From contig BEXV01000677.1 of the NCBI GenBank assembly GCA_003118195.1, positions 27,768 through 91,767 of the forward strand: DNA of 64,000 nt. Direction: 5' to 3'. Shown here in pieces: positions 23,851 to 55,159 of the stretch (positions within the stretch are counted from its first letter, which is position 1; each line of letters opens with the position of its first letter). This DNA is from Hemicentrotus pulcherrimus (lineage: Eukaryota > Echinodermata > Echinoidea > Camarodonta > Strongylocentrotidae). A program made the translations under genes and the position numbers. Under the pieces are notes generated by a model. The model was not told where the DNA came from, did not search any database, and saw only the letters and a program-made list of their open reading frames with translations.

Positions 23851-24032
23851 CGTTCCCGACGAGTTCTTCTACGACAACCAACTTTTTTTATTTCATATAA
23901 ATTGATTGTTAAAAGTCGAAATCAAATGGGTTTTTTAATAATAAAAAATATTAAATGCATGTTGAACAATATGGTAAAATGTGTTTATGAATCTGTTTAT
24001 TTGACTTGCAGAAGTTGCAGGTGGCACACAAC

Positions 24033-28923: not shown

Positions 28924-31900
28924 TTACTGGGCTATTCTACCGCTTATTGCTTCAACATCCCTGAGTAACGTATTGACGGCAATCTTTAAGCTGTCTAAGA
29001 TCACATAGTCACGGAGGACCAAGGTGGCTCTGTCCGGACGGGGGATGTAGGGCGGACGTGTCATGACTGGTGACGGGGCGGAGGTCGCAGTTGGCGGTGA
29101 CGGCTGTAAGATGTCGACCTGGAGAGAAGAGTAATATGTGACACAAACGTAAGATTTAGAAGGGAACTGCGGTTTGCTGGAAATGAAGCCTGAACATTAT
29201 AGATCCAGGCGCCACTCGAGCACCAATGACGTGTAATTAAACCGAAAGCTGAACGTCTTGCTCCACTGACTGCCTCTTGACCCCAGCCCCCTTCCTCCAC
29301 TAATTGTTATTTGGGGTACGCATATATTATGCTCGTTCCCTCTTATTGAAAGCACCCCCTATCTGAGAACTGCCAACATCTCCGAACCCCCCTTTCGCGG
29401 GCTTTTCGCGGGCTTTTCCTACCTTGGAGACCCCCCTAATTCAGGAAAAATGCTCAATGTACCCCCCCCCCCTAAATTCGGAATAATTTCTCAGGAGTCC
29501 AAAGAGATGAGAGAAAAGAAAAAAAAACACCCCCTTTTTAAAGAAATCTCCGAGTGAAAAGTCAAATACACCCCTTTTTTTACAATTCTCGGGCCGGACT
29601 TTGTCGGCGAAAAGTACCCCTTTACGGGACATTTTGGCAACACGCATGCGGTCATTTCGAAACCTGAGTGGGGGGGGGGGGNTTTTTTTTTTCAATAGGC
29701 TATGCTAGACGGTTATTTCTGTCTATAAAATTAATTGTCATAGTTTCATAAATGAACGACATCAACACAGACAGTAGAATCAATGCGGTTATACATACAA
29801 TACACCACTCACCCAGTCATTGAGAAGTTCTCTGGCGGTGAGCAATTTTTTTTGCAAGGCTCGGACCTGTTCTTCGAAGCTAGAGGTCCAGGAACTTATG
29901 CGCTCGTCCTCTATTATTGTATCCAAGAGATAGTCGAATGCTCGGAGAACGCATGCGTGTCGGTGAAACACTGTGATGTAGTCCTGCATCGGAAACAAGG
30001 AGTAAAGCAGTAAAATTTAATATCATCATAGGGTACGTTTAGGCCTACATCTCACAGGCCTGCATTATGAACTCTGGCTTAAATAAAACCGCGGTTCAAA
30101 TTTGGTCTAAGTCACGTCTAACTCCAGTTTAAATCAGCCAGTTTAACCGCAGCTTCAGAAGTCAGTTTTATCTTAAACTCCAGTCTAAGAGTCTTTAGTT
30201 TCACTTGGGCAGGAGTTTAACTTAGACCAGAGTTCTGAAGACGGGCCACAGACTTTAAAAAAAAACGGTCAACATAAGGCCGTTTTAATAGCTTATGTGC
30301 CACCTATTTACATATTATGTAGTTAAACATAATGGCGTTACAATAAGGTATTGAATATACACCTCGGTTGATTTCCCTAAAATATTGGCGATTGTGTTAC
30401 AGATAGATTAATAGTAATTAAAGGGATAGTTCAGTTCTGTTGCAGAAGGCGCTACGCAACTCAACTATCCCTTTAAGATTCGGATATATTGAGAGGAACT
30501 GCAGCCAGCGAGAGATAGAGAGATAGGAAATCATAACACCAATGCCTTGGTAGAGCGTCGATCTCATATTACCTAGTTCTTCGGGTACACTTAGATGCCG
30601 TAGGTCCGCAGCTGATTTTTTTTTTCTTCAGTTTATTCGAAACAAATTGCAATGATTGCATTATTCAACGATTGATTATTCAGTAACCAGATAGTGACTT
30701 ATCATGATCTTTCTTCAGAACTATGTGTTTACTACGGGAGTGTACACGACTATATCCGTTTGGTATTTTGGCGCCCAATTCCGGTATTCGTATCCCAGGG
30801 AATTTCCCTATTGCAGTAAGAATGAGTAATACGGTAATCAGGAAATTTCCATGATTTTATTGGAAAGGTTGGAAATGTCCATGTCTGATGATCGAGGCTA
30901 TAGCTTCACAGATTTGAACTCTGAACCCTCACTTCTTTTCGAATGTAAATGTTCATAGATGTGGAGTATGATACAAACATTGCTCATTAATACTGGCTTG
31001 ATAATGATGAAAAACATCGGGCTAAAGTTGTTTACTTTGAAAATAAGCTAATTTTCGTTTTATGCGCGACATTACAATTTTCATTGGCGGACTCTCATAC
31101 AGAAGAGCTATTGGCGAACGCACGGGAAAGAATTCTGACTGCATTGGAGGCTCTTGTTTCTTTAAATTTGTTAATTTTTCAATATTTTTTCAATGCACGA
31201 AACACGAAGGATATTTATCAAATTGAATTGATAATGCAATTGCTTTTTAAACAGAGGGAGAGAGAGAGGGAGGAGGGAAATTTTTAGTTATGGAAAAATA
31301 CACAGTGGTCCGCTTTGATTCGTTTAATGAAAAACAAAACAATAAATTGTAGAGGTTTTAGAATGTTTAGATTCCGGCCTCTGAGGAAGTACGACGAAAC
31401 TCTCACTTTTGATTCTGTTTGATAAAGACTTTTTTTCGTTTGCGCTACCTTTTACCTTCGTCACTTTACAAATCAGCTCCAAACACATNGCGCTCCAAGT
31501 ACTGTGTCTTTTTTCTTCTCCAGTGCTGGTTTTTTAAAACGAAAATAACTTCTCTCTCTTTCTCTTTATTTTGAATGCAGTATTCCTTCATTAAAAGTTC
31601 AACAACAAAAAAAAAATGGTCCCATTGTAACACATTTCTTAAAATAGTCCTTGCTACTCCCTTGAGTCGGACGTAAAAACGACAGAGTCTCTAAACATTT
31701 ATTTGGATGGCGCTAAAACCATTTACACGTTTCGCCTTATCGATCCGTTTTAAAAACACAGGGAGAGCGTTTTGGGGTAGATTGTGTGTTTTAATAGAGA
31801 AAATACTTATAACTCCAATTGGATGATAACATGTTGACTTAATTGTTGTTTAAGTATTCAGTTTTATTCTGAACATAAACCAAAGCTTGTTCTATATCAA

Positions 31901-34900
31901 ATAAGTTTGAAGTGCGGTATTGTTCTATTATTATGTAATTGATATAGGCCTATACATATTCAGATACACACTCATATATATACCTATATTGACATTTTTC
32001 AAAATACAGAATCCAACGATATGAAAAGTCCGGATATAATTAGGAAAAAAGTCGAATTCACAACGCTCTAGTTTTGTATATTCTATTATATCATAATGAT
32101 AATTACATTTCCCTTACTATAACTGTTCATGCTGTCTTAATGCAGATGGATGGAAATCCCAGTTTAAAGAGGTTACATTAGTGGTCACTTCCTTTGGTGT
32201 AACACCACACTCAAACAGGCAATTGAATAAACTCCAACGTTAGTAGTTGAATAACCAACGGCTCTTGAAAGTGCAAACAAAGTGACTACTGATATGACTC
32301 CCTGCAAAGAAGATATTCACTCCCATATACATGCCATCACCCCTCCCACAAGAACATGCACTGGTAAATACAATATGAAATCTATATACTTTAAAGCCTC
32401 ACTCTTAGGGTGTTAGGAGCCCCAAATTCGCCAAAAACTTAATAGCAAATCTTGATAAAAGAATTCATAATTTGGGTCTTTTTTAATACCCAGAAATCCT
32501 AAGTTTTGTTTCTTTCATCAATATTCGACTTTAAACACATTTTTTTTTTGGGGGGGGGGCGAATCCTTGCAGAAATGTGTTTCAAATTGCATCCTCTTTC
32601 ACATTATGATACAATTTAAGTGAAATTTCGCCATAAAATTTCTAGAGTTCTCGACACTTTAGAGAGATTTTAAGGTGATTGATCTTTCATACCCCTGCTC
32701 CGATTAACATTAGGGTGCTTCCAGGACCGCTACACATTGAGACCAATCCTACGTCTGTACTTAGCGGGAAATCGCCTCTTTGTGGTTGTCGGATAGTCAC
32801 CTGTTCAAAAAATACCAGCAAAAGCAAAATTACATGATCTATTGCGATACACTTTCAATGTGTTCTATCTCATACTCGTGTACAACATTACAAATTCCAC
32901 TCTGGAACGGCAATGAACTGCAATTTTATTTAACGGCACTATGAAACGAGAATTTTGCTGAGCGAGTTGATATAAAGTGAGCATTTAGAGATGGTGACAT
33001 AGGAACTATTGGCCTAAATTACTACTGCAGATGATCAATCACTGCCTCTCTTAATACTGTCATATTCGTTATTCAGTTTTGTCCAACGCAGGAAAGACAT
33101 GTCGGTTTAATTTGTGTTTCGGTAGTTTCATGTTACATTTCAAGCATTTTTGCAAAGACTTTCAAATTTCAACCTGAAGCAATTTCTATAGCCTCAGGCA
33201 TTTACTTTTGAAAAGTGGAAACATTTAAGTGATGTAAGACAAAATCTAGAGACCAAAAAAAAAAAGTTGTTTATCAATCGATGAATTCGAACAAACACGT
33301 TACTTAATTTAAAAAGAGAGAAAATGATGCAACTCACGTAGTTGAGAACTGTTGTCTGGATGTCGCTAGATAACATGATGAGACGGAGCCGAGTTCCGAT
33401 GGAGAGATCGGAGACGCTAGATGCCTGGGGTGCGGTTGGACTTGGAACAGGGCTAGCAAGACCGGCTCCGAAGACAGTCGCTTTAAGTTAAGGGATAACA
33501 CGAAGTTTAGTTAAGTGACGAAAAAATGCCAGTGCTAACCGTTCTTTCGTCTTTCCAGTGACATTTACTGTTTGTATTGTATTATAAACAGGTATAATTA
33601 TCTTTCAATCTTTCCTAATTGCTTCCACACAGTGTATTTCGCGATGTAATGGCATGCTCCGTATATATTCAACTCTGTTTACACCGAAACCTTTTTTAAT
33701 GCAGTAAATTTGGCAGGAAACACTTGGAAGTAATTGTGTATTATGCAGTTTCCGGTAGCCTTGACTGAGTATTCTAGTCTATGATATTACCAGCTGTGGT
33801 AAAATTTATGTTAAATACATTTTTCACACATACGCCTGATAAGTGCTTATTTTAAGATAACTAGAAACTGTGAAATAGATTTCATGAGACTAATATCCCT
33901 CTCGACTCAAATGAGGAATAAAGATAGAGATTATATGAGAAAGAGAGAGGAGAGAAAGATGTGATAATTGCAGTGAGCTCATTGTGGAACCATGATCCTT
34001 GCCCTTCTCTGTACACACACAGCAACTTGTACATTGTAGAAGTAATAGTTTGTTTTTTTGCGGGATGCAAATGCGAGATTAAAGGATGTGTACCTTTGTA
34101 CCTTGTTAAACATGAATATATGGGAGAGAAAATTATATGATTATGTAAATTCATTATTTTTCCTCTAACAAAGTTTGAAGTCGACAATCTGATGAGAATT
34201 AAATGATGAATTAAATTTCTCGCAAATGCGATGATTTCCGATTGTGCGTGACATTGTAGTGAGAAAAGAAGTTTAAAAACTTGCTGAAAAAAAAAAATCC
34301 CCAGTGAAATCCTGTAGCGTGGGAACTAAAATGAGAATTATTGACGCGACTTGTTGCTATAGAAACCAGATGTCGCCATACCAATGTTCTTTGGCAAGGC
34401 ATTACTCTACATTTGCAACTCTCCTCCTAGGTGTTGTAAATGGATACATGTAATATAGTTTGGAAGAAATTCCTTGAATGCCAGAGCACATTTTAGGTAA
34501 TATGTCCCATTTGCAGGCCAACAAAATGAAAAGGTTACATTCTAACGGCATTTGAAAGATAATCCTAATTTTAGAGCTTCCAAAAGGGATTGAAAACTTT
34601 TTTTTTGGGGGGGGGGGAGAGGAAGATTTCAGACCCTTGTACCGAATGGTCGTTCCTTTTTGTGCTGCGCAAGGATTCAATCAAATTAATTCTGGCCATT
34701 ACAAGAAGTGGGTTATTGTGTAGACAAATGCTGATGTACCCTTTACAGCTCTTTTTATGTATGTTATTGCCAAAGAAAAAAGAATTCAGTCAGTCACTCA
34801 ATAGTGTTTCACAAGGGAGTCTAGAAAGTAAACGGGTTTCCTTGCATACAAATTGAATACTAGGACACTGCTAATATTAGATTTCACAGATAGGTCAAAC

Positions 34901-36125
34901 GTGACATATTCATAATTCCTGCAAAGTTCTACAGAATTTGATGTTAGCTGCAAAAGGGATACACTACCTTTAACATGGTAGCTCAAGTAAGGTTAGAAAT
35001 AGTAAAGCGCACACAAATAGATCTCCAAAGTTACTTCTTTCTTTGTTAAAAGTCTTAAAGGGAAAGTCCACCCTGAACTTAAGTTGTTTTTAATAAAAGC
35101 AGAACAGTGAGAGAAACATATCAGTGAAGGTTTGACGAAAATCCGACAAAGGATACAAAAGTTATGAATTTTTAAAGTTTTAATTTTGTGACGTCACATG
35201 AGAGCTGCTCTCCTATACGTTGTGTACTGTAAATTCCATAAATTGCCATTTTCTCAGAAAAATAATAATTATTTTACCTGTGCATTCGATATATTATCAG
35301 ACACATGCTTTTATACACGCCTCTATGAAATAGATCCATTCCTTCATCAAGAACCATGAAAAGGGGGCAATTTATGGAAATTACAGTACACAACATATGG
35401 AAGAGCAGCTCGGAAGTGACGTCACAAAATTAAAACTTTAAAAATTCATAACTTTTGTATCCTTTGTCGGATTTTCGTCAAACCTTCACTGATATGTTTG
35501 TCTCACTGTTCTGCTTTTATCAAAAACAACTTAAGTTCAGGGTGGACTTTCCCTTTAAACCCAACATATATAATGTTTAAAGTTTTGCAGAGTTCGGGCC
35601 AGGTTGTGAGCCAGAGAATAGACCTGTTTGAAGCGAGCAAAGTTACAAACATGGAGAAAGCCCACTTTGTGTTTTACCACCAAAGTGATGGGATGATTTA
35701 TGAATACCTTTTATTTTGCCCATTTAAAAATGAATACCACGTGCATATCATAGAATGTTTCGTCGCCGCAAAAATAAACAATTATTACATAACTTTCATA
35801 AACACGTATCCAGCATTCTTTGCGATAGGTTTTACGTTTTACGTTTTGTTCAAATGACCATCGGTAGTTGTATGGAACGATAATAGATAGTATCTCTAAA
35901 GGTGATAGATGTGGATATGAATTGTGATAAAGATCGAGTAAATACTAACATCATATTCCTTGATTGAATAGCCCATGAGCCTATAATAAATAACAAAATG
36001 TATTGGATTAGTTGTCAAAGAAACAGAAAAGTTATAGACACAATATAAGTAAGATTATAACTATTTATATTTATCTTTGAAATTAACTACCTACCGATGA
36101 GCGCCAGAATCCTCAAAAGATGCAT
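28924..36125 (-). CDS. Candidate IL-6/G-CSF-like secreted helical cytokine, paralogue A (5 exons)
   Basis: Not recognised by direct homology. Assembled from GT-AG signals and its match to paralogue B. Coding exons (minus strand): 36095-36125, 33338-33480, 32693-32800, 29813-29983, 28924-29118. Phases are 1-0-0-0 and the product is 215 residues. Residues 1-20 form a signal peptide (MHLLRILALI, then ATVFGAGLA). Mature N-terminus is Pro/Ser-rich. Putative helix A is GTRLRLIMLSSDIQTTVLNY (exon 2). Exon 3 is a loop with one Cys. Exon 4 holds two amphipathic helices, with ACVLRAFDYLLDTIIEDER and then EEQVRALQKKLLTARELL. Exon 5 starts VDILQPSPP, a proline-rich linker, and ends with helix D (LDSLKIAVNTLLRDVEAIS). 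This order and the Cys on each side of the exon 3/4 junction fit IL-6/G-CSF-type cytokines. A role in JAK-STAT signalling is inference. Confidence 0.72.
29440..29690. repeat. Repeat with C/G homopolymer ends
   Basis: The segment runs from a poly-C tract at about 29461 to a poly-G tract ending in an unknown base at 29682. It lies in the last intron of paralogue A. Such C-tract-bounded repeats recur near 38600 and 62000-62130. No coding sequence is supportable. Confidence 0.5.
30057..30247. mobile_element. Short MITE
   Basis: The left end (GGCCTGCATTATGAACTCTGG region) is complementary to the right end CCAGAGTTCTGAAGACGGGCC, with several mismatches. The interior has repeated AGTTTAA/TTAAACT words. 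It lies in an intron of paralogue A. Confidence 0.75.
30417..30476. repeat. 60-bp inverted repeat with TTAAAGGGATAGTT ends
   Basis: ATTAAAGGGATAGTTCAG at the left pairs with CTCAACTATCCCTTTAAG at the right around a GC-rich loop. This is a very small foldback element in an intron of paralogue A. Confidence 0.7.
34494..34983 (-). mobile_element. MITE family with TGTCCC..TTTGCAG ends, copy 1
   Basis: Ends (AGGTAATATGTCCCATTTGC at the left, TGCAAAAGGGATACACTACC at the right) match the complements of the ends at 42718-43384. Shared interior includes AGTTCTACAGAATTTGATGT. It lies in the first intron of paralogue A. Confidence 0.8.
35053..35561. mobile_element. About 510-bp MITE with arms of about 200 bp
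   Basis: TTAAAGGGAAAGTCCACCCT begins the left arm and AGGGTGGACTTTCCCTTTAA ends the right. The arms stay complementary through TTTGACGAAAATCCGACAAA, TTTAAAGTTTTAATTTTGTG, GACGTCAC and GTTGTGTACTGTAA. The high arm identity suggests recent activity. It lies in the first intron of paralogue A. Confidence 0.93.
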
Positions 36126-36164
36126 TGTAGATAGGTTTCAGTGAGATATGATCTGTGAGTATAA

Positions 36165-36264
36165 ATCTTCAGTCCAATCGATGGCTCTAAATTAATGAGA
36201 GTTTGCTTCATAAAACCTATCTTTTATAGCCGATAACAGAATTTACCCACTGTATATTGCGAAA
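36165..36264 (-). promoter_or_regulatory. Core promoter of paralogue A
   Basis: On the minus strand, in order: TTTCGCAAT (36256-36264), a C/EBP-like half-palindrome; CTATAAAAG with the TATA box at 36221-36228; and ATTGGACTGAAGAT (36165-36178), which matches the equivalent place in paralogue B. The ATG follows 40 bp later. The start of transcription is expected about 30 bp after the TATA box. Confidence 0.6.
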
Positions 36265-38621
36265 CGCCATAGTACGCACACGCACTCTAGCGCTCACCCA
36301 CACACACCCTCCAAAACATACACATACACACGCAAACACTACACAAGTCATATTTAAGGCATGCCTAGAGATATTGAGTAATGATTGAATTATTAAAATT
36401 AAATTATGATAATCTCATCTTCTATAGATAGGATATTTCCACATTCGTTTTACCAAATATAAATAATAGGAATATTTCTCTGCACGCATGATGCGGCAGT
36501 TCCCTGAATAACGACGACGGGAGTAGGGGCTGTATAGTATACACCCCGCTTGAAAAACGCTGCAGAACTCAAGTTTCCCCATTTCAATCTTTTTAATTAA
36601 AAATCTAATTTTCTATAATGGATTTCTTAGTAGATTTCAATGCTAGGTTATGATTGTAACCGGGCGTTTGCTGTGAGAGTGAAAACGGATTTTTCTCTAC
36701 CTGATATTTCAAGGAAGTGTATGGGAAATGTAACGGATCGTTCAATAGGATATGGCCGGTCAAAACTTTTGATCTTCGTCTGGACCACAAGGGATTCAAA
36801 CAGGTATAGTAATCGGCAAAAAACTCTAGATTAAAAGCACCTATAACAAATCCCCAAAAGAGTTACTATGTCAAACGAAGAAAGAAAACCAATGAATAAA
36901 CCAACAACGTGTCATCGTATTAAAATTAGAAATTTAGACACATGTTAGGAGAAAGGCAATATATCTTGCTTAGTTTTTATTATTTGGTTGCCACTACCAC
37001 ACAAACGAAGCCCGCATGGTTTATTCAAAAGATATATGTAAATACACAATATTTCAGAGGTATTTTATTTCTAAATTTGTAGCGGCCCCCCGTAAATCGG
37101 AGGGGGCTTCCAAAAAAGGGGACCATTTTGATGACAAATAGTATTTCGTTAATAATGTTTAAAGGAAACCTTGAAACACCATATGAAAGAGAATTAAATT
37201 ATTCATATTTTGATTGATATCAATTACAACGGAAGTGGGATTAATTAAAGTCGTAATTCTAAGTAAAAAAACTAGGTTTTGGGGGTGATTTTCATGAATT
37301 GAATTTTATCAAAAGACCTTATTTTCCATATATTAAAAATGCCCACGCCCACATTTCCTGAAAATCACTGAAAATAGGGAAAATAATGATGACTATTGTT
37401 GTAAATTATGTGTAAGGAAGAATCTCGTTATTGGACATAAACATCTTCACATTCGGAGAGAGTGAAAGAAGAATACAATGAAATGCATTTCAATACAAAT
37501 ATTACTTTAAGGTATTCAAGAAGCATTGTCTGTATGCAGGAATCGAATCTGTTTTTATTCTTTGCTATCAGATAGTTATATTTTATTAATCAAATCATAA
37601 GCATTAAATGTGGACATGTTCATTTTAATTATCTAACGTTTGGAAATCGTACTTAATGCATTTATTCCTACATCCTAAGGGTTAACAGAAAATCATAATT
37701 CCTAAATTTTCAAATACGTGTGCATGCAAGCTAATAACTTATTTGAACGGAAAACTGTTTTACATGAAATGATTATCATGATTCTGGTAATTAGTGCATC
37801 CGATAGGAAACCTAAATTCATGGCGTCATTCATGTGAAGTGCATGTATTAATCGGATTAGAGAAAGGATGACAGAAATTTGATAGACATGATATTGTATT
37901 GAACTAATCATCAAGGAAATCATCAATGAATAAATAAAATTGCCATTATTGAAGTACATAAATTGAATTGATCATCATCAGTTGATTATTAAAGATTGAA
38001 AGCGAGAGAAAAAGAAGGAGACCGAGAGAAAAGTGGAAGATCAAAACTTCTTCCACAAAATGACGTCATCAGGCAAACTTTTGATATGTGTAAAACTTTT
38101 GAGCTTGGAATATATCTAAAGGATGGGAGATAATGATGGAGGTATCATTGGACAGTGTTCAGCAGAAAAAATCACACTTTCAATTCATCACAGTAGGCTT
38201 GAAGTAATATTAATTCGCTTGTCGAGAAGGAAAACTTGTGTCTGTAGTATAGGAGAATGACAATAAATATATGTTAAATAAATTCTATGTATTCAAATGT
38301 TCACGTAATGGAATTTTAATTAGTGCCTCAATAAGAGCTGATTTCATACCGAGACTTTAAACAGCTGCTGGCGTAATCAGTTTTACGATTCAATTCTTAT
38401 GGGACTTTATAGGCGGCTGTCCAAAAGTCCCAATATTGCAATTCGTTATGAATCTATATGTTGAGAAGTGTAATACAAACTACTTTGCTCCGATTTATTT
38501 GAGGCTTTTTACGTGATTTTTCCGGCCGATTACAAGGATAACAAGGAAACCTCAAGGTAATGGACCATTAAAAAATCTCAACGAATCAGGCGGCCGCTGA
38601 ATAAGCGGGGGGGGGGGGGGG
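36265..38621. other. Intergenic, no gene seen
   Basis: AT-rich sequence upstream of paralogue A. A CA-rich tract lies at about 36270-36345. Apart from that I see no repeat or ORF that can be supported. The stretch ends in a poly-G run at the assembly gap. Confidence 0.6.
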
Positions 38622-39476
38622 NNNNNNNNNNNNNNNNNNNNNNNNNNNNNNNNNNNNNNNNNNNNNNNNNNNNNNNNNNNNNNNNNNNNNNNNNNNNNNN
38701 NNNNNNNNNNNNNNNNNNNNNNNNNNNNNNNNNNNNNNNNNNNNNNNNNNNNNNNNNNNNNNNNNNNNNNNNNNNNNNNNNNNNNNNNNNNNNNNNNNNN
38801 NNNNNNNNNNNNNNNNNNNNNNNNNNNNNNNNNNNNNNNNNNNNNNNNNNNNNNNNNNNNNNNNNNNNNNNNNNNNNNNNNNNNNNNNNNNNNNNNNNNN
38901 NNNNNNNNNNNNNNNNNNNNNNNNNNNNNNNNNNNNNNNNNNNNNNNNNNNNNNNNNNNNNNNNNNNNNNNNNNNNNNNNNNNNNNNNNNNNNNNNNNNN
39001 NNNNNNNNNNNNNNNNNNNNNNNNNNNNNNNNNNNNNNNNNNNNNNNNNNNNNNNNNNNNNNNNNNNNNNNNNNNNNNNNNNNNNNNNNNNNNNNNNNNN
39101 NNNNNNNNNNNNNNNNNNNNNNNNNNNNNNNNNNNNNNNNNNNNNNNNNNNNNNNNNNNNNNNNNNNNNNNNNNNNNNNNNNNNNNNNNNNNNNNNNNNN
39201 NNNNNNNNNNNNNNNNNNNNNNNNNNNNNNNNNNNNNNNNNNNNNNNNNNNNNNNNNNNNNNNNNNNNNNNNNNNNNNNNNNNNNNNNNNNNNNNNNNNN
39301 NNNNNNNNNNNNNNNNNNNNNNNNNNNNNNNNNNNNNNNNNNNNNNNNNNNNNNNNNNNNNNNNNNNNNNNNNNNNNNNNNNNNNNNNNNNNNNNNNNNN
39401 NNNNNNNNNNNNNNNNNNNNNNNNNNNNNNNNNNNNNNNNNNNNNNNNNNNNNNNNNNNNNNNNNNNNNNNNNNNN
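38622..39476. other. Assembly gap (855 unknown bases)
   Basis: A run of N between a poly-G tract and an A/G-rich tract. The sequence next to the gap (GGCCGCTGAATAAGCGGGGG) is complementary to CACGCTTATTCAGCGGCTGG at about 62265, so the gap probably begins inside a C-tract-bounded repeat that could not be assembled. Open frames crossing the gap are artefacts. Confidence 0.98.
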
Positions 39477-39899
39477 AGGAAAAAAAAGAAAAGAAAGAAA
39501 AATAAAAATGGGGGTAAAAGGATAAGAAGGAAACAAAAGACGCGGACTATAGGTGGGATTAAAGGGGGTCTTATATAGCCCCACCTATATATGTCTGTTT
39601 TCGTTTTAACCCGTTTTAGCTCAGATGACACATGGGGAGACAGCATTTGCCAAAAGGGTGTGTTAAAATACTACTTCATTGGATCTTCTAGTATGTAACC
39701 GAATTTTAATGTAAAATCCTTGGTTCTACGTCCAAAAGCTAATCTAGAGTTGGTACCTCCAAGAATATTAAACTGTCAATAATCTTTCACATATTCGCTC
39801 AGGGGGTGGTTGCGCATACTCTCGATACGGTTAAATTGATAACATTTCTCGCCTTAAATCAAGAGGTATTTCGCCTAGTTTGACTTGCAGGGTTTGAAG

Positions 39900-42717: not shown

Positions 42718-43384
42718 TTAAAGATACTATGTCCCTTTTGCAGCCAACATCAAATTCTGTAGAACTTTGCAGGAATTATGAATATGTCATGTCTGTCCTA
42801 TCTGTGAAATTTAAACATTAGCAGTGTCCTCATATTCAAATTATGCAAGGAAACCCGTTTACTTGCTAGACTTCACTGTCAGACACTATTAAAGCCCCAC
42901 TGTCCTACTTGTAGCTACTTGCTACCTCTATCTGTCTATAGAGAAAACTTCCCAAATCGGTGCCTGTTGGTCCCCCATGATCCTCTTTTTCTTATGTTAG
43001 TTGAGAGCTGAGTTAATGAGATAGCCACCTGTCATTGACCTCGCTGTGTGGTCTAATCCCTTCTGGCCCGGTAGTGTTGACGGTCTGTAAATGACTGACT
43101 GCCTCTTTTCTTCTTTGGTAATAACATCCATAAAATGAGCTGTAAAGGGTACATGAGCATTTGTCTACATCAATAACCCACTGTTTGTAATGACCAAATT
43201 TAAACTGATTGAATCTTTGCGCAGCATAAAACGTAAGACCATTCCCATTTAAAGACATTTTCAAGCCCCCCCCCCCCTCTTTTTTAGGGAAGTTCTAAAT
43301 TAGTATTATCTTTCAAATGCCGTTGGAATTTATCCTTTTCATTATTTTTTTTTGGCCTGCAAATGGGACATAGTACCTTTAAAG
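42718..43384 (+). mobile_element. MITE family with TGTCCC..TTTGCAG ends, copy 2, with nested insert
   Basis: The left end AAAGATACTATGTCCCTTTT and right end AATGGGACATAGTACCTTTA are near-complementary. The flanking AACTTTGCAGGAATTATGAA block matches 34494-34983 in reverse. At about 42890-43075 it contains the 3540-3727 repeat in reverse orientation, so one element has inserted into another. Confidence 0.8.
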
Positions 43385-44089
43385 GCATATTCATGGTGAA
43401 TTATTAATACAACCGATTAACTAGTGTCCAATTGCAAAATGCAAAATTGAATATGTGTTGTCGTGTTTCTTTATATTTGAAAAAAAAAATAATGAATCAA
43501 AATATTCCAAAAAACTTATTCTAGAATTCAACAATTTGAAACATTACATTATTACGGTTATGAATGAAAATCACGTTTTTAATCACTCAGTACTTCAAAC
43601 CCCCATAAGGAGCATGCTTTGCCCGCTCTGTAAGTGACCCCCCCCCCCAAGATAACATCCAAGCTACGCAGTTGCGATTGATTGAATGAGTTCGATTACT
43701 TTGGGGAGAAACACTTAATCCCAACTTCATTTACATATGGCCTCTATCTCCATTCTAATGGCGCTATTTGTCATGTATGCATAAACATATTTTTGCGATG
43801 TGAATCTAAATGTATTTTGACAAGATTACGCAACATAATCATAGTCATATAAAGACTCAATCTCATAGTAAACGTATTAATGAATTAAACACAAAACAGT
43901 CACCATGGTTACAATCATAGTCATGTTGTCTGTCGTTTTTAGTTATTCTTTGTTCTGCTGCTAGCCAACCGTGTATATTTTCTACCACTTTTTGCGATGT
44001 ATTGATGTTCCTACGTTCTTGTCAACGGAATGATGACTGACTTACCTTTTGCTGAAACAAGTGATATTGATTTAGACATATAATTTCCA

Positions 44090-47000
44090 AGTTTGCATAA
44101 TGTTGATTCCACTTCCTCATCTGACAAACGATATAAGCACTATAATTATTATAGTAAATTCGATGAAATTTCACTTCAGTTTGATCTTATTGATATTCAT
44201 TATGTATTAAAGAGAATCTCAACACCAACCTCAAAACCAGATCATTCAAAATTTTACAAAGCACATCAAAATGTGATTTAAATTTCTTGAAGCTCAATAT
44301 TCGTAGCCTGAACAAATATGTTAAGCTGTTGAGTTTATTGCTGAACAATATAGATGTGTGTACTATATCATCGGTCTCACTCCCTTTTTCTCTCTCTTAA
44401 CATAACCTCATATTTAAATACCTGACGAATAAGAGAGCAGGAGGCGTTGCAATGTATGTTACCGACCACCTTAATTTTAAATTTCTTTTAAAAGTGGTCT
44501 GTATCGAATTAGTCTTACATTGCACGAAAATATCGTAGTTGGTATTATTCATCGCCCCCTTTTTCCAATCACAACGAATTCTTACTTGAATTACAGCACT
44601 TACTTGTTATGTTTTCCACCTTCTTCAAAATAAACATTGCATTATTATGGGAGATCGGTTCTCTCATGATTTTCTTGATACCTTACTTTCATATTCTTTT
44701 GTTCGATTATAATATAAAAACCAATGCGTTTATCCACTCAGTCGTGTACTATCATCGATAATGTATTTGTAAATGTTGATCATTTACAAACTGAATCTGG
44801 CATTATACTATCTGACATATCAAATCAATGTCCAGTTTTTATTTCAAAAATTCAAAGTTTGTTAAATCTTACTAATTCACTTTCCTCCTCAAAAAGGGTA
44901 AGGAAATGTACAGCCTCCAAAATAGATAAATCAAAGGAAAAGCTGGGATCGATTAATTGGGCAGAAGTGTTGGTTTATACTGACGTAAATGTGTCTTACA
45001 ACAATTGTAAGCACGTCTTAAAAAAAAGCTCTTGACGAATGTATTCCACTAGACAATTGCATTTTTTCTAGGTACAGTCACGAACCATGTAACCCTTTGG
45101 GTCTCTAGGTCTTTATTTAGATCAATTCATAGGAAAAATAACTTGTGTTACGAATTTCGTGCGAATCCCACACCAAAACTTCGTGATTAATACATTAAAT
45201 ACATATCACAGAAGCAAAGATTCAGCGACTTGAAAAACAAAGATAGTTTTGTATCTAGTTTGAAGAAAAAAAGAAATCCCACATAAAGTTAACATGGGGA
45301 GTTATTAATAAGGCCTTGAACACCAAAAATATTTTAAAAAACATAAAACAAATCCGAGAGGTTAATAAGACCATCGACGATGAAGAATCTTTTGCTAATC
45401 ACTTTGATGATTACTTCTCAAACATTGGACCCAATCTTGCCTAGAAAATTCCAGTTGTCGAAAAACTTTTTCAATCATTTTTGGAGAACAAAAATAAGAA
45501 TTCTATATTTTTTTTTATTCCAACCAACTCATCTGAGATTCTGAAATTTGTTAAAAAATTAAAAGAAAAAAATTATTACGGATTAGAATGAAGTCAGTAA
45601 CTTTTTATTGATAAAATATTAAATACGAAATCGTTGTTCTCCTAGAACACATATTTAATCTTTCCATGACCCTGGGTGCGGTTCCCGACATCATGAAACT
45701 TGCAAAAATTGTTCCGATTTAAAAAAGGGTGACACAAGTAATCATAGGCCCCTATCTCTCGTGTCTTCCATCTCTAAAGTGTTAGAAAAACTCATTTATG
45801 ATCATACAGTAGCCTTTTTAGTGAGTAATAATACATTCTCCGACTCACGGTTTGGCTTCAGACGAAAACATTCGACTGTTTATGCGTTTTTACGTTTCAT
45901 TAATCGTGTTGCCTCTGTAATTGATGATCACTGTCATACCCTTGGAGTGTTTCTTGACCTCTCAAAGACCTTTGACACAATTGACCATCAAATTCTACTA
46001 TACCAACTTTCATACTATGGTATACGTGGAGGGGCCTTGGAGTGGTTCGAAAGCTACCTCTGGGATAGGAAACAATACGTATCCATCAATGGAGTAGATT
46101 CAGCCTTTTAACGGTTCATTTGTGGAGTTCCACAAGGATGCCTTTTGGGCCTCTTTTATCTATATTGTATATGAATTAATTTTAAAACTCATCCAATCTG
46201 TTGTCGTTTATATCATTTGCTGCTGATTCTTCTGTGTTTTCTCACACCAGAAGCCCATTGCACTACTTAAAACCCTTAACCTTGAACTGTGTAGATTAGA
46301 TTTGAAGAGTAGATTTGTGCTAATTAACTTTCCTTAAATTTAGATAGCACTCAATGTATACTCTTCAGCAGCTCTATTTTAGGGTTTACATTTATAAAAC
46401 AGTTATAAACTAAGTTGATACGTCAACATTCCTTGGTTTTATCATTGACAATTAACTCTCTTGGAAAGAACACAACTTATATTCAAGCAAAACACTATTA
46501 AGCAACATTGGATTAATCAATAATTTGAAAATGTCGTTTCCTAAGTATATTTTGAAAAGTTTGTACTCGACGCTTATCTTGCCTTATGTTAACTATGTCA
46601 TACTTGCATGGGGAAATTCGTTTAATTACCAGTTGGACAAATTATTGATACTCCAAAATCGAGTCATACGAATAATCTGCCACACTAATAGGTTGAGCTA
46701 CACTATGATTTATATTTAGAAAATAAAATATTAAAAGTTCTTGACTTGTACAATTGCTTTTATGCTGTTTTATGTTTCAATTAAATTCTAACGAAGTTCT
46801 TCATGCCATCACGTCGACATTCTTCCGTTTTCACTTACACAAACTGAAAACTTTACAGAGAAAAAAAACTTTGATTTATACTGGTCCTGTGTACTGGAAC
46901 TCTTTGGACGTGTCGCTCAAACAGCTGCCCAATTTAAGTACTTTAGATATCACTTGAAATGTAAACTTCTTCTTCTGTAAGGAAATGCTAAAGAAGGTCA

Positions 47001-47330
47001 TTATGGAGACACCGTTATTATCATAATTTGTTGGTTGGCAACACCACACACCCGTTTTTATTCTTCTTTTGTTTTTTCTTTTGTTTAAAATATGTAACAA
47101 ATATATTATGTAAATGAAACCTTAATCAGAAGCAGCTTCCAAGGTTTCCTCCTCATTACTGTAGATCTAGTTAGCATCCTTTGTGACTTGCATAAAATCG
47201 TTTTGATTTTTTAAACCACCTATCTATCGAATACATTTATATGGTTTGTTACCTTGTTTTTTCGTTACCTTGTAAATTATGTTAATATACTGTACAGTTA
47301 AAATGTGGAAATAAAACATATACAAAAAAA
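44090..47330 (+). pseudogene. Near full-span but decayed CR1/L2-like non-LTR retrotransposon
   Basis: In order on the plus strand: endonuclease-like fragments at about 44500-45035, then an RT domain. The open part at 45761-46111 contains SKVLEKLIYDH, FGFRRKHST and GVFLDLSKTFDTIDHQILLY. C-terminal pieces follow: LPYVNYVILAWGN at 46525-46719 and GPVYWNSLDVSLKQLP at about 46870-46930. A 3' UTR ends AATAAAACATATACAAAAAA near 47330. Many stops and frameshifts mean it is inactive. Confidence 0.8.
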
Positions 47331-48777
47331 ATATTACGACGAGAGAATTTTACAGTATTGTAAAAAAGAAGAAGTTTATTTCCAGAATTGAACATAATCA
47401 AATAAATCATAGGGATATTGAACATAACATAGTCTTAGTCATATTAAGGGGACAACATTTTACAAAAGTATAACATGTTATTTTGCAGAAATTATCGTAA
47501 TTATAAAATCAAAATAATATAAATGTATGATAATATAACTTAATTGCACAGATCAAACGATAACATTGCAGTAAAATCTAGGCCTGATCTTCGAATATCG
47601 ACAGTTAACATAAATAAAGGTTAATAAATGTAAAAGTCTTCATAATCTGTTTCATGCAACAGAGACTCCACATTATTTTTTTTTTTTGAGTAACTCGAAG
47701 TAAATGCTCAAAATATTCAAGTACATTGTACTCTACATAGTAGATACATAATGATGGTTTTGATCCCTGTATGGCACTGTTTGTCCTTTGGAAAGATATT
47801 AATTCACATTTGCCACCTTTCACCCAGGTGTTAAATTGATACCCAGTAAAATCATAAAGTCATTAGGCGGTGTCACACAGAAAAAATCCTTTTAAATAAT
47901 CCCTTGAAAAATCATTTCAAGGAAGAATTTTCTTGCTTCGTTAGAGGATTTTTAATGGGATAATTGATGACAGACAGTAATTTAAGAGGATAACTAAAAT
48001 CTGGATTTTTGGCCTCGATGTGACAACGCCTATTGTAGTTTGCTCCGTATTGTGAGTATCTGAAAATATGGTGCTTTTTACAAAATATTTTCAATGATGC
48101 TAACGGCTTTCCATAATTGTTAAGTCCAACTTAGAGATAAGTTCCACTTAGGATCTTTGTGAAACACCCCCTGGTTTACTGATTTATGGAGCGCCAAAAT
48201 TCAAACTCTTCATCCCATATTATTACTATTATTCCGAGAAAAGAAGAAGAAAAAAATAATCACTATATGGAATACATTTGAATTTTAGTTTTCGATGTAA
48301 GACTAAATTTCAATTTTCGTTGTAAGACTAAATTTTTTTCATTTATTCACTTTATCACAGAATTATAGCAAACTGTACATAATAGCGAGCTGGAGACTTC
48401 TCGATCCATACAAAATAGGTTTTGATTAATCCGCTGAAATTTATGTATACAAGCTATTACGAATTGTGCTTTACATGCGTTTGCATGCCAAGGTTTAGTA
48501 CTGTACACGTTACGGTATACAGGACTTATGGAGTAAAAAGACATTCAGAGATAGATTGACAAACTATAGAACAATGAGAAAGAGAGATGGGGAGAGATCG
48601 GTCGACGAAAGCGGAATATGTGTTTGTCTCCGGTGATAAGCATTATTATAACATGCTATTAAAAATCGCGTCATGCACACAATGTTTTGTTGAGACTATC
48701 GAATTCACATGGAATGCCCTCATAACAATACTGATATGATATATTATCTACAAATATGTAATGTATTATGTTACTCT

Positions 48778-48778
<1 letters not shown>
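47331..48778. other. Intergenic, no gene seen
   Basis: AT-rich sequence downstream of the LINE 3' end. The only feature recognised is the MITE fragment at 48090-48173. Paralogue B's transcript may end here (AATAAA complement at 48342-48347). Confidence 0.5.
48090..48173. mobile_element. Right-end fragment of the GGGGTGTTTCAC MITE
   Basis: AACGGCTTTCCATAATTGTT, TAAGTCCAACTTAGAG and GATCTTTGTGAAACACCCCC match the terminal half of the copies in the HPS1 introns. The left half is not recognisable. Confidence 0.7.

Positions 48779-48811
<33 letters not shown>
48779..48811. repeat. (TAA)n microsatellite
   Basis: About 11 perfect AAT/ATA triplets on the plus strand. Confidence 0.95.
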
Positions 48812-49117
48812 GTTCGTCCTTATAGTGGAAAACCTCATGCAGACCGGCTTTACACAAATAGGTTCTGATTGGCCAATGTTTACATTTTTAAAATTTGACT
48901 TTTCTCTTTGGGTTTCGAAGGCGTACGAAAATCTTGTACAACCCATCCCATACGATGTAGGCACCGACAGAACAAACAAACAAGTATTATTTTGGCAAAG
49001 TTACTGCTATCAATTGCTAAAACTACATTTTATGAATTGACTTAACTATTATTATTTGAAATATTCTTTTAACGTACAATTTCTCAATATAAATACTACA
49101 ACAAGAACAAAAGGCAC

Positions 49118-52100
49118 TTATGAAGAAGAACCTAACATGTTAAATACCAAGCGGACATCCCTGATTAACATCGCTTCGACGTATGTCTTTAAGGCTTCAA
49201 TGATCTCAAAAAGGAACTCGCCCAAGGCCGGCAAGTCCAAATGGGAGTTATTTGAAGGCGGTTGAGTAGATGATAACGATGGGAAGGATGTTGATGTCGG
49301 CGTAGAGGTCAAAGTTGGCAATGATGATTGTAGGATTTCGACCTGTGTATAAAGAAAATTAATTTAAAGACTAGACTTATAATGAATATGTTTAATTCGA
49401 TTCCTTCCCCCCCCCCCTCCATTTATTGATGTTCATTTCCAACAAAATACATGTATCATAATACAAAAGTACTGGGCAAAATTTATACAAACCATTATTA
49501 CATTTGAAACAAAGACAACATCGATACAGTGCATTATTTTCTTAGAAGAAATCACAGGTTAGCTTCTGTATACTTCGAAATTAGAGGCCAGGCTCAAGAC
49601 CGACCATAACTTTATAGAACGATAAATGTAAACCATTTCATCCAGGACTGTAGATATCGCCGTAATTCTTTAAAATGAAAGTAGAACAATTCGTCTCCTC
49701 TGAATTTTTCTCCCCATTTCCTTTACACTACAACATTAATTGTGTTTCTTTATTTTGTTACATTATAAAAAGCTTCGTAGATACAATCTGCGCATGAACA
49801 GAAACTTTGCATTTGTACAACATATGAAAACCCACTGAGACAAAATGCTGGATACATGCTCATAAAGTTTTGTTATCAATATCTGTTTAAGCTCAAGTGC
49901 ATTTCAGGGTATACAGGTTGAAGTATTATTTTCAAGAGGGGAATACAAAAGCCATTCACTGAGCACATTCTACATGATCAGTCTAGAATGTGCATAGTGG
50001 ATCTCCCCATGTTAAGGCCCGGTCACACAGAGGGGACGCATGCGGGACGCACGGCCGGCGCATGGAATATTTCCAATTTTGGCCAGTGCGTTGTCGTTCG
50101 CTAGGCGTGCGTCATTACTCGTTACTCGTTCGTCGAGCGCGCTGGACCAACGCTGGACCAGCGCTATGCATTCGTCGTTATTCGCTGTGTGCGTCGGGAT
50201 TTTTTGAGCAAGCTCAAAAGTGTGCGCGGAGCTCGACGCATGAATGTACACGCCAAAGGCACGCCAGACGTGCGTTGAACGCGCTAGACCAGCGCCAGAC
50301 ATACGCGGGGCACACGCCCTGTATACGCACAGCGCGCTAGCTACACGCTGCGCATTTTATGTCAGCTCGATAGCTTTTCCAAAATCATGACAAAAGTTAG
50401 GCACACGGCCTTTTCCGATTTCCAATGCGCTGACCGTGCGTCGTAGAACGGGGTGCATGCGTGGACCATTCGTCCAGCGCGCTAGCAACACGCTGTGCAT
50501 TCGTGGAAGTTATTATCATGTGCGCTCTGGGTACGGTCTGTATGCGTACTGTATGCGCCCTGTATGCGCTCAGCGCGCTAGCAACACGCTATGCATTTGG
50601 TGTCAAAAGTTGGGCGCATGACAACGCACTGGACAAAATTGCAAATTTCCTATGCGCTGGCCGTGCGTTCCTCATGCGTCCTCCCTGTGTGACCGGGCCT
50701 TTAAATAGATCGATGGAAATTTAGGGTCATGTGTGCCATGTGCTAATTACGATTCTCACCTCCCTGATCTGTAACAGTACTTACATTAAATGGCATTCCA
50801 TAAAGTCATGAACTTTGAACAGTTCAATTGAAAATTAATTAATCCGTCGCTCACTTTCCCTTTTTTTTAAAGCTCATCTTGAGGTCTGGTATGGAAGTCG
50901 TATTTTGAGAGAAAATTGTTATGATTTATTCTGGACTGTTTATCCTGAAGTTGATTGGTTGTTCGAACCAGTGAAACAAAAACAAACGAGCAAGAACTTA
51001 CTGGGCATTATCTTCGATAAAAAAAACACGTCTCCCATTTGCACATAGTGACCAGCACAAGGTGTCGGGCCTACTTACCAGGATTTCCTTATTAGAACAG
51101 CATTATTTGGAATTTGGAATTTGGAATGGAATGTAATAGTGGTGGTTATTTTACCTGATTGCTCAGAAAGCATAAATGCTTTTAAGTAAGCAACCAGACG
51201 GCCGACGGCTTTAGGTCCTCTCCGAGGGACCTGGTAATGAGGAACAATGCCTTACCAAAGGGCACTAGCGCATCGCCTTGGTTTCGAACCCGGGTCACAG
51301 GATTACGAAACGAATGCTCTACCGACTTTGCTATCGTGCCTCTTATATCTTTCTAGTATGCTCATTACTCAGCCACTATACATTTTCTACGAAAATTGTT
51401 TTGCAAATGTCCTTTATTTGTAATCTTGAACAATCAGTTTAAGTTTCGTTGGATTCTGAGAGAATTTACTTTCTATATTTACCAGAATTCAAGTTTATCT
51501 TTATCCGCAAGGCCACTTTCGAAAATAATGAGCCTTGGGTTTCCCAAGTTCTTCTTCTCTATAGGGATAGAAATCACTCACGCATTGAAAAAGCCAGTAG
51601 GCGACATCGAGTATATGTGTCTTCACGTCTTGGATTTTTCCTGTCAATGTGACGTTATATGACACATTTCGCTCGTTTTCTAGGACTGTGTCCAATAGGC
51701 GGGCGTAGGTTTTTAGGGAGCACTCGTGTTGCCGAAGAGCGGCTGCATATTCCTGTGTTTTGGTAAAGTAAAGAAGAGGCTTAATAGAATTTAGTATCAA
51801 TCTGGCCTTGAGATAAAGTACAGAAATATATGTATATATAAACACACACACACAGTTACGTACATAAATCTTATTAGATACATATGCTTATGGATGATGA
51901 TATATGGAGATATAACGATTTTACACAGCCCCCCCCCCCCCAAGTAAAAAATAGAAAATAATGATTAATATGCCTTTTCTCTGCCTTCCTTTTTTGTTGT
52001 TGTTACAATAACTTAAATTGTTCCAAAAGCTCTCTCCCTGTGAAAGCTGTTGTATTATTGTATTACAAAATTAAATTTGCTCCTAATAAACTAAATTTAG

Positions 52101-54946
52101 AAAAACAATTTTCTGAGCTTAAAACTCATAATAAATCCCCACAAACAATGAGACGTTAAAAGCAGTACAAACAAAGCCGCACACCACAGAAATCAGAAGA
52201 AAAGAGAGAAAGAGTGAAAAAATGGAGACGCGAGAGCTCTACTCTCATCCCAGAAGTCCAACCCGCAGGAGACATGCACTTCCGTGTCAAACTCCCCTCA
52301 AACCCTCCACTAAAACCACAAATTAAGTGTCTTCATATCATATTCAATTAAACACAATTAAAAGAAACTTTTCATTTCTTCCGTTTCTTTTTTCATTAAA
52401 AAAAGCACATTTTATACATACATAATGACACAAGCAATTTTATATAGCAACCGTTTTAATGCAGGGAAGACGGTGTACTACTTCTTATAACAATGCATTA
52501 TAAATATGTAAAAATAAAAAGAAGAATAGAAAAAGAAAGGAAAAGAAGAGAGTGGGAAAAGGGAGTCGGAGTATTAAAAGCTGTTGCAAATTATGATAGT
52601 TAGCGTATACATTATGTGTACGTACTCTAATAACGATACTGGCAGAAATCAAGAGAAATAATGCTACTGGAAACATAAGGAAGTAAACATCCAGACAGGA
52701 TTAATACCAACGCAATGTTGATATTATTCTTGAATATGATGCAATGCTATTAACAAAAAAAAATTAAGATGATTTTCTGTGACGTTTTGTATTTCTTACC
52801 CTTTGAAGGATTAACGTCAACGAATTTTGTACTGTGCATGTATCCTTCACTATCTCTACAATCTCATTTTCCACTGATTGGTTCTTTGCTGGATGCCTAT
52901 CGCTCTCCTGTTGAAACAAATAGAACAGTACAGGTGTGTCGTTTTGTGTATGGTAAAAATAATTATACTTATTACTGCTGCTACTACTACTACTACTACT
53001 ACTAAAACTCCTACTACTACTACTACTATTGCTACTACTACTATTAATAATGATTATAATAATAATAATACTTATAATAATATTGATAATGATAATTATT
53101 ATAATAACAATGATAATAGATTAGCATTTAATATGTTAACAAATAATAATTCTAGTGAATCAAATTGAGTTGAATAAATTAATCATATAAGGGAAAAAGC
53201 AGTCAAATACTTGAATTGCTGAGAATTACACAATTTAATATATCAATTTCATGCCATGTTTGTATAAAAAGAATTCAAATGTATTCTTTTCCCATCTCAA
53301 ACAATTACTGTGATATAGAACAGTGCAAAACTTACGTATTCTAGCATTGTGTTAGAGACCGAACCCCTCAATAACAAGGCACGAATATAGGCAGAGTTGG
53401 CGAATTCCGTGCTTGTCTGTTCTGAGACAGTCGAGACTAGAGATGCGTTTGGAACAGGTATAGCAAGACTCACTCCAAAGGCGGCCGCTTTAAACAGACA
53501 GAAAATACGTGTAACAAGTAAAGTTGGAATAGGAAGTTTGCCATTATATTCGAAGTCATTAAGTAACCGCTAAAGGTTGTCCCCCGCTCGATCACACTTT
53601 CCTGCCGAATAGTCCCATTTACACATTTTTGTACAGGGTGCATGTGACCTTTACCATGACTGGGCTAATTTTAATGATAACTAATGCTCACGTGATCAAC
53701 CTTTCCATTTCCTCCAATCACAATGCAATCGCAGAACCAGAACTCAACTTTATCTTTTAAAAATTGCTTCAAAGTTGGAAGTCCATTATCTGCGATGGCT
53801 GTACAACAATCTGATTGGCAAACGTGAAACAACTAAAACACAAAATAGATCAAAGGCTATCGCACAAAGAGCTACTATTTTATTGATACTGATCCATTTT
53901 TGACCAATAAGAATACGCCTTCCTTCATGTCGCAACGGATTAACTTGTTTTTGATTGGCTGATTAAATTGGTATTACACTAATAATGATAACATAATTTT
54001 CATGAGCACTTTTCCAGAATTCGTTATGCTATGGTCGCCATACCCAAAAGTAGCCTGCTCGGCGGCTGAGCGGCGAGTTTTTAACCAATTCTGCCTGGCG
54101 GCTGCCCGGCCACCAAGCGGCGGCCGCTCAGGCACCGCTCGTTTTTATGGCATCGCTCGGTCGCCGCTGAAGTTTTAGCGCGGAGTTAAAATTTGGGCGG
54201 CGCCTGCTCACTTTTCACTTGCCGCCCAAAATACGCTCGGTGCCTGGGCGGTCGCCGCCCGGTCGCCGCCCGGCACCGACCTAATTGCTGAGCGTTGCCT
54301 AAATTCCAGCAGCGACCGAGCAGGCTACTGATCGGTCGGTCGCTGCTCAGATTTGTGACCATAGCATTATTACGTATTTTCAAACTTTAAAGGCAGTGAA
54401 ACAGACCCTCTGTGGATCTGAATGGGACAACTAGGCCTTTCAAGGAAAATATGAATAATTTAAGTAATTAATACATCGGCTAAAGAAATATTACACAAAT
54501 ATTTGTACTCCTTCCCAAACTGTAATAATAATGTACAGAAAAAAGCAATGTTGGTGATCATAATTAGAACAACAAGAAAAAGAAAAGAAATTGGTAAATA
54601 GAAAAGCAAGAGAAAAAGTTCTATCATGAAAGACATATTACTTTGATTGACTTGAAATTTCCAGAAGGAGGAAACCACTAAAATCGCTAAAATAGCGTAA
54701 GACAAACTCTTTAAAACAAAGGAATTTGGAGCTAAAATACGCTGTTAAAATTACAATGTATATGAATATCAGGCAAATAACCAGATCACAATGATTATCT
54801 ATTCATCCGACATAATAATAATGCACCTAATAAGAAGAAACATACATTACTGTATAACTATAGTAAGGCTGTATATTTAAACCGATAATTAGAAGCATCT
54901 AAATTAAAGACCTACCAGTAAGCGCCAATATTATCAATCGAAACAT
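49118..54946 (-). CDS. Candidate IL-6/G-CSF-like secreted helical cytokine, paralogue B (5 exons)
   Basis: Coding exons (minus strand): 54916-54946, 53336-53487, 52800-52907, 51582-51752, 49118-49342. Phases are 1-0-0-0 and the product is 228 residues. The signal peptide is MFRLIILALT followed by AAFGVSLA. Putative helix A is YIRALLLRGSVSNTMLEY. Exon 3 is 36 codons, as in paralogue A, with one Cys (KDTCTVQ). Exon 4 is 57 codons in both; 14 of 57 residues are identical, including Cys 11, LLDT and ER (HECSLKTYARLLDTVLENER). Exon 5 begins VEILQ, has a long Ser/Thr/Pro linker, then a C-terminal helix (FLFEIIEALKTYVEAMLIRD). All donors and acceptors are canonical. The pair is tandem, same strand, about 13 kb apart. 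The low identity at fixed exon lengths indicates an old or fast-evolving duplication under selection. A possible AATAAA lies about 770 bp past the stop (48342-48347). Confidence 0.72.
50014..50703. mobile_element. 690-bp foldback element with AAGGCCCGGTCACACAG ends
   Basis: The left end AAGGCCCGGTCACACAGAGG is complementary to the right end CTCCCTGTGTGACCGGGCCT. The arms continue as GACGCATGCGGGACGCACGG / CCGTGCGTTCCTCATGCGTC. The interior is GC-rich and consists of short degenerate words (GCGCTAGCAACACGCTGTGC, CGTGCGT, GCATGCG) in both orientations, unlike the AT-rich surroundings. Open frames inside it (up to 116 codons) are low-complexity by-products. It lies in the last intron of paralogue B. 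Confidence 0.92.
51134..51343 (-). mobile_element. tRNA-derived SINE, copy 2
   Basis: Same family and strand as 6925-7133. It shares TTAGGTCCTCTCCGAG, CCTTACCAAAGGGCACTAGC and GCATCGCCTTGGTTT on the plus strand, with a B box (GGTTCGAAACC on the minus strand). The two copies differ mainly in the anticodon-arm region. It sits between exons 4 and 5 of the second cytokine-like gene. Confidence 0.85.
52976..53110. repeat. Compound trinucleotide microsatellite (CTA)n-(TAA)n
   Basis: TACTACTAC runs change into AATAATAAT-like sequence over about 135 bp. It lies between exons 2 and 3 of paralogue B. Confidence 0.93.
54023..54371. mobile_element. GC-rich foldback element with TTATGCTATGGTC ends
   Basis: The left end TTATGCTATGGTCGCC pairs with the right end GTGACCATAGCATTA. 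Inside, GTAGCCTGCTCGGCGGCTG pairs with CAGCGACCGAGCAGGCTAC. The middle is built of GCCGCCCGGTCGCC-like words in both senses. It has the same build as 50014-50703 with different words. It lies in the first intron of paralogue B. Confidence 0.85.
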
Positions 54947-54996
54947 ATTGAATGAAATCTCCGTCAGATGTTGTCAAAATTCGATGTATTTTGTTG

Positions 54997-55109
54997 ATAT
55001 TCAGTCCAACTGACGGCTTTCTCTCGGTGTATGACAATAATCATGTGGAATCATCTTTATTTTATAGGAATTTATGGAACATACCCATTTTTTTAAAATC
55101 ATTGCGTAA
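54997..55109 (-). promoter_or_regulatory. Core promoter of paralogue B
   Basis: On the minus strand, in order: TTACGCAAT (55101-55109), C/EBP-like; a TATA box TATAAAAT at 55059-55066; and GTTGGACTGAATAT (54997-55010), matching the leader block of paralogue A at similar spacing. The ATG follows about 50 bp later. An imperfect palindrome (GCGGTATA ... TATACCGC, about 55117-55158) lies just upstream. Confidence 0.6.
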
Positions 55110-55159
55110 CGTTAAAGCGGTATAGGTAGACAAAACGCCTACGTTACGTATACCGCCGT

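Follow-up and report, generated by a model that had tools for sequence, protein, structure and literature searches.

Does a sea urchin genome hold helical cytokines of the IL-6 and G-CSF type? The question is raised by a stretch of 64,000 nucleotides (nt) from Hemicentrotus pulcherrimus (contig BEXV01000677.1, positions 27,768 to 91,767; hereafter the window), in which a preliminary description had noted two genes for small secreted proteins, here called gene A and gene B, and had assigned them to that type. Based on our analysis, we propose that A and B probably encode secreted long-chain class I four-helix cytokines, a family new to echinoderms, with a modelled fold that lies nearest to CNTF, IL-11, G-CSF and IL-6. 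Gene A (28924-36125) and gene B (49118-54946) both lie on the minus strand, head to tail and about 13 kb apart, and their coding exons are the following:

54916 to 54946, minus strand: exon 1 of gene B, 31 nt, phase 1, with the start codon and the start of the signal peptide
53336 to 53487, minus strand: exon 2 of gene B, 152 nt, with the remaining signal peptide and predicted helix A
52800 to 52907, minus strand: exon 3 of gene B, 108 nt, with the AB loop, its short helices and Cys85
51582 to 51752, minus strand: exon 4 of gene B, 171 nt, with predicted helices B and C and Cys108
49118 to 49342, minus strand: exon 5 of gene B, 225 nt, with the proline-rich CD loop, predicted helix D and the stop codon
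36095 to 36125, minus strand: exon 1 of gene A, 31 nt, phase 1
33338 to 33480, minus strand: exon 2 of gene A, 143 nt
32693 to 32800, minus strand: exon 3 of gene A, 108 nt, with Cys81; the least certain exon
29813 to 29983, minus strand: exon 4 of gene A, 171 nt, with Cys105
28924 to 29118, minus strand: exon 5 of gene A, 195 nt with the stop codon

The five-exon anatomy that had been described for the pair was borne out when we re-derived it from the window. Each gene has five coding exons with phases 1-0-0-0, and all introns are GT-AG; the exon lengths in B and A are 31/31, 152/143, 108/108, 171/171 and 225/195 nt, and the last exon opens with VDILQ or VEILQ. The predicted products have 228 (B) and 215 (A) amino acids, and both begin with a hydrophobic N-terminus that we judged by eye to be a signal peptide. 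Both genes have a single cysteine in exon 3 and another at codon 11 of exon 4; these are residues 85 and 108 in B, which has a third at the end of exon 4 (residue 154), and residues 81 and 105 in A, which has no others. Gene B carries 5 N-glycosylation motifs and gene A carries 0.

The evidence on the fold comes from one model, of mature B only, with a mean predicted local distance difference test score (pLDDT) of 56, which is low confidence, and values of 34-41 in the helix A region. When this model was structurally aligned with known structures, rows 1-30 of the 50 listed were class I helical cytokines, and the best row aligned 157 residues of the model, from residue 16 to residue 205 (the range gives the ends only), a span that holds all four helices. 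The helices follow the order A-B-C-D, and long links join A to B and C to D, as in the long-chain class I cytokines. Exon 2 corresponds to predicted helix A, which ends with the exon; exon 3 to the AB loop; exon 4 to helices B and C; and exon 5 to the CD loop and helix D. The modelled fold and the exon-to-helix correspondence thus lend good support to the view that these are helical cytokines, and we consider it quite likely that A and B belong to the long-chain class I group, the gene A product presumably folding like that of B. A first AlphaFold2 model, of the full-length protein, was set aside: residues 2-14 were helical and several structural alignments started at residue 1. The signal peptide had seemingly displaced helix A in that model, and the mature protein was therefore refolded. 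A Foldseek search with the full-length model returned mainly axonemal and TRPV1 chains. In a viral library, no named cytokine was among the best 50 of 373 rows.

To which branch of the class I cytokines could A and B belong? Five coding exons with phases 1-0-0-0 and introns at helix/loop borders make up the gene plan generally known for long-chain class I cytokines; the genes of IL-6 and G-CSF are divided at these borders too. The preliminary description took this plan as a mark of IL-6 and G-CSF. It is less specific than that: the growth hormone and erythropoietin genes also have five exons with phases 1-0-0-0, so that the plan speaks for long-chain class I cytokines as a whole. For the human IL-6 gene, five exons and four introns are given in the available part of PMC5165036.

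Fold rank favours the IL-6/G-CSF branch. CNTF, IL-11, G-CSF, IL-27, IL-6, LIF and IL-23 all have their best rows higher in the list than the top rows of leptin and interferon. Sequence comparison was made between A and B and ten human helical proteins (20 pairs, 300 shuffles each). The highest z scores were 5.6 for A with IL-6, 3.5 for B with CNTF and 1.9 for B with IL-6, and the remaining 17 pairs fell between -1.2 and 1.1. In sets of 3000 shuffles, the A/IL-6 score was reached by 1 global and 10 local shuffles, the B/CNTF score by 32 global and 20 local, and the B/IL-6 score by 128 global and 90 local. After correction for the 20 pairs, the likeness of A to IL-6 is suggestive and not proof. 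Their alignment opens with 60 columns free of gaps, and in it the exon 4 cysteine of A falls on residue 82 of the IL-6 chain used, which we take to be Cys83 in the usual numbering. From this cysteine to the end of exon 4 there are 46 residues in both A and B, a distance that is presumably the same in IL-6. HHalign ranked CNTF (21.1), IL-6 (17.0) and growth hormone (16.3) highest, none of them significantly.

Several observations weigh against filing A and B as members of the IL-6/G-CSF family itself. No Pfam family matched either protein at an expectation value (E) of up to 10, which includes any IL-6/G-CSF profile. The IL-6-family signature is C-x(9)-C-x(6)-G-L-x(2)-[FY]-x(3)-L, and it is absent here: the cysteines are spaced C-x(22)-C in B and C-x(23)-C in A, and from the second cysteine on the sequences read C-x(6)-R-L-L and C-x(6)-Y-L-L. 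IL-6 and G-CSF have two disulfides; with 2 cysteines in A and 3 in B this number is not reached, and A, having only two, can form at most one. For want of the signature and of a second disulfide, we do not file A and B as IL-6 or as G-CSF. The disulfide across the exon 3/4 junction that had been taken as common to both fits IL-6 and not G-CSF, in which both cysteines lie in exon 3 on the generally known exon map. Compared with IL-6, the pair has a cysteine spacing of x22/x23 instead of x9, the first disulfide is absent, and exon 4 is eight codons longer at its start, again on the generally known map. G-CSF has differently placed cysteines and no sequence similarity to A and B. CNTF shares 13-14% identity with B in structural alignment; it differs in lacking a signal peptide and in having a gene of two exons. 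PDB sequence searches at E up to 10 listed 2 and 17 sequences, none of them a cytokine, and the matches themselves were unfit, being nanobodies (E 0.78 and 2) or a nucleoporin, a REST corepressor, histidine kinases and one ribosomal protein (E 0.32-1.7). Rfam returned nothing at gathering score. The structure prediction and fold search that the preliminary description had asked for, run on B, thus put class I cytokines on top and favour the IL-6/G-CSF branch by rank, but membership is not established, since the signature, the second disulfide and a profile match are missing. On balance we lean towards true common descent with the IL-6/CNTF/G-CSF branch rather than with another.

The missing family features, together with the shared gene plan, give some room to the idea that A and B are long-chain class I cytokines of another branch, whether like growth hormone, erythropoietin or leptin, like the insect Upd ligands, or basal to all. 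We regard this as unlikely: besides the fold ranking above, growth hormone, erythropoietin, leptin and interferon alpha-2 gave no sequence signal with A or B (z -1.2 to 0.9), and growth hormone and erythropoietin are not among the 50 structural rows listed, though that does not exclude them.

Somewhat less likely again is that A and B are lineage-specific secreted helical proteins with another job, for example in defence or lipid binding, and that a model built on a shallow alignment merely looks like a cytokine. The structural list speaks against this, as it is unmixed through its first 30 rows and its best alignment covers the four-helix span; the exons end at helix/loop borders that match the known map of IL-6; and the best A/IL-6 alignment has the register that exon 4 would predict. 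We therefore keep to the reading of A and B as long-chain class I cytokines.

Are both genes real, and are they related? When about 5.8 billion proteins were searched with gene B, there was one match at E up to 1, LOC115924277, an uncharacterised protein of Strongylocentrotus purpuratus (E 1.3e-71, 74% identity over 72% of B). It starts at a methionine four residues before the end of exon 2 and continues through exons 3, 4 and 5, supporting 3 of the 4 exon joins at the same junctions as in gene B. Exon 1 and nearly all of exon 2, where the putative signal peptide and predicted helix A lie, are outside its range, and its final residues differ from those of B. A search with the three-sequence alignment, in which the 8000 candidates sharing most words were scored, again found only this protein. 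At the level of sequence, gene B is conserved in this S. purpuratus protein.

Single exons of A and B were compared with the window by tblastn. Exon 4 matched reciprocally (E 5.5e-6 and 6.9e-6), as did exon 2 (E 0.022 and 0.007); for exon 5, the B query found A (E 0.021), and the A query did not list B at E up to 10; exon 3 gave no match either way. Since the exons pair in this search and A and B are 30% identical in the three-sequence alignment, the two are old, diverged tandem paralogues, and we are highly confident that they form a genuine pair of paralogous genes. Equal length by itself says little for exon 3, because the 64 kb hold 55 open 108-nt AG..GT frames; being also unmatched to its counterpart in B, exon 3 of gene A is the doubtful part. 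The S. purpuratus exon 3 had not been known to the preliminary description and so provided a fresh test. Scored against it, exon 3 of gene A reached 16 and ranked first among the 12 candidates in the intron with lengths of 90-126 nt (runner-up 5), and the other candidates, all scoring below the exon originally chosen, were rejected. Candidates containing the single N at 31489 were omitted from the scoring. Over the whole window, 4 of 629 candidates (gene A exon 3 counted) scored higher, and all 4 overlap exon 3 of gene B. The exon ends with LIGDG in S. purpuratus and with LIGAG in gene A. That gene A is decayed or misjoined and B alone a real cytokine gene is improbable: exon 3 of A is divergent (score only 2 against exon 3 of B), a query with A alone found no homologue among 646 candidates and no transcript is known, but the five exons of A are open and in phase with GT-AG borders, its exon 3 is backed by that of S. 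purpuratus, and it has an upstream block in common with B.

This block lies in the proximal upstream regions:

36126 to 36325, minus strand: proximal upstream region of gene A, with a TATA sequence at -103 and ATTGCGAAACG
54947 to 55146, minus strand: proximal upstream region of gene B, with a TATA sequence at -120 and ATTGCGTAACG, collinear with gene A

The collinear block common to A and B includes ATTGCG(A/T)AACG upstream of the TATA sequence. In a 200-bp comparison, 11 of 1946 random pieces of the window reached the score of the shared block against the gene A region, and the 300-bp upstream alignment of A and B scored 39 against a shuffle mean of 26.6 and maximum of 46 (300 shuffles). We take the motif to resemble a C/EBP site. 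Human IL-6 carries a C/EBP-beta (NF-IL6) site, according to the available part of PMC5165036, and the parallel is a hint only. A motif scan of 700 bp upstream of A and B found no NF-kB, AP-1, cAMP response element or interferon-stimulated response element site; a loose NF-kB match stands in gene A only, at -379. STAT-like TTCN3GAA sequences occur at -591 and -383 in A and at -278 in B, and their positions do not correspond. Of additional note, the 1200 nt downstream contain 11 ATTTA words for gene A (27724-28923, minus strand) and 3 for gene B, counts that were made with no control and may reflect A+T content.

We envisage the following mode of action. Each gene would be transcribed from its TATA promoter, and the product would be secreted once a signal peptide of about 19 residues is removed. 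It may fold into helices A-B-C-D, joined by long cross-overs between A and B and between C and D, one disulfide pinning the AB loop to helix B. The ligand could then join the chains of a receptor of the gp130/IL6R/Domeless type on target cells, most likely coelomocytes, and the receptor assembly would start JAK-STAT signalling. For A and B, we infer secretion, the disulfide, the receptor, signalling and an immune role.

The introns and the space between the genes also contain repeats. Intron 1 of gene A holds a foldback element, an inverted repeat at 35055-35558 with 202-nt arms that are 94% complementary and spaced by 100 nt. Two stretches (arms of 97 and 78 nt, 91% and 88%) recur as inverted copies about 8 kb apart, at 34719-34973 in the same intron and at 42718-43169 between the genes. 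An element at 50009-50706, in intron 4 of gene B, has 93-nt terminal inverted repeats (85%). The run of N at 38622-39476, between A and B, is of uncertain true length and so may hide further sequence. Elsewhere in the window, an exon-like open reading frame at 12835-13164 (plus strand) matches HPS1 of the BLOC-3 complex (8zwc_A, E 1.6e-17), so that an HPS1 gene is probably nearby on the plus strand. A 482-residue frame at 24006-25454 (plus strand) belongs to the sodium/bile acid symporter family (PF01758, E 2.9e-36). Frames at 45761-46111 (plus strand) and 56828-57986 (minus strand) resemble, by eye only, pieces of non-long-terminal-repeat reverse transcriptase.

How does this fit with what is known of such ligands? 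Beck and Habicht reportedly found in 1996, by bioassay and with no gene sequence, an IL-6-like activity in the sea star Asterias forbesi, an earlier hint of an echinoderm IL-6-like molecule. A sea star IL-6-like molecule of 1996 is cited in the accessible parts of PMC4503460 and PMC8226699, and the former states that interleukin-6 receptor expression increased in treated sea stars. In our literature search, no echinoderm helical cytokine gene was found reported. According to the available text of a 2021 survey, IL-6 superfamily members were not located in invertebrates (PMC8226699), and that of a 2026 survey reports IL-6-family ligands from vertebrates only, together with an IL6R of S. purpuratus close to vertebrate IL6Rs (PMC13203501). 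A 2012 paper, in the part available, describes the purple urchin as without an apparent cytokine receptor signalling system (PMC3296744), and on the urchin receptor these two texts disagree. The BLAST cut-offs of the 2026 survey were, as its accessible methods state, E 1e-5 and 30% identity (PMC13203501); such a search could well miss ligands like A and B, whose signal lies in fold and gene plan. The preliminary description's remark that class I cytokines are poorly known outside chordates omits the insect Upd ligands, which are named in the available part of PMC13203501; Drosophila Upd/Domeless is an invertebrate JAK-STAT cytokine system, which A and B would parallel.

We see about even chances that the IL-6/CNTF/G-CSF family and its five-exon plan predate the echinoderm-chordate split, with A and B as the ligands so far missing for the IL6R-like receptor of echinoderms. 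A candidate ligand at the level of the gene would shift the origin of IL-6-type signalling back to the deuterostome base, and it opens the question to direct tests in a laboratory animal. If A and B are indeed these ligands, a complete ligand-receptor-JAK-STAT system would have existed before vertebrates and before adaptive immunity.
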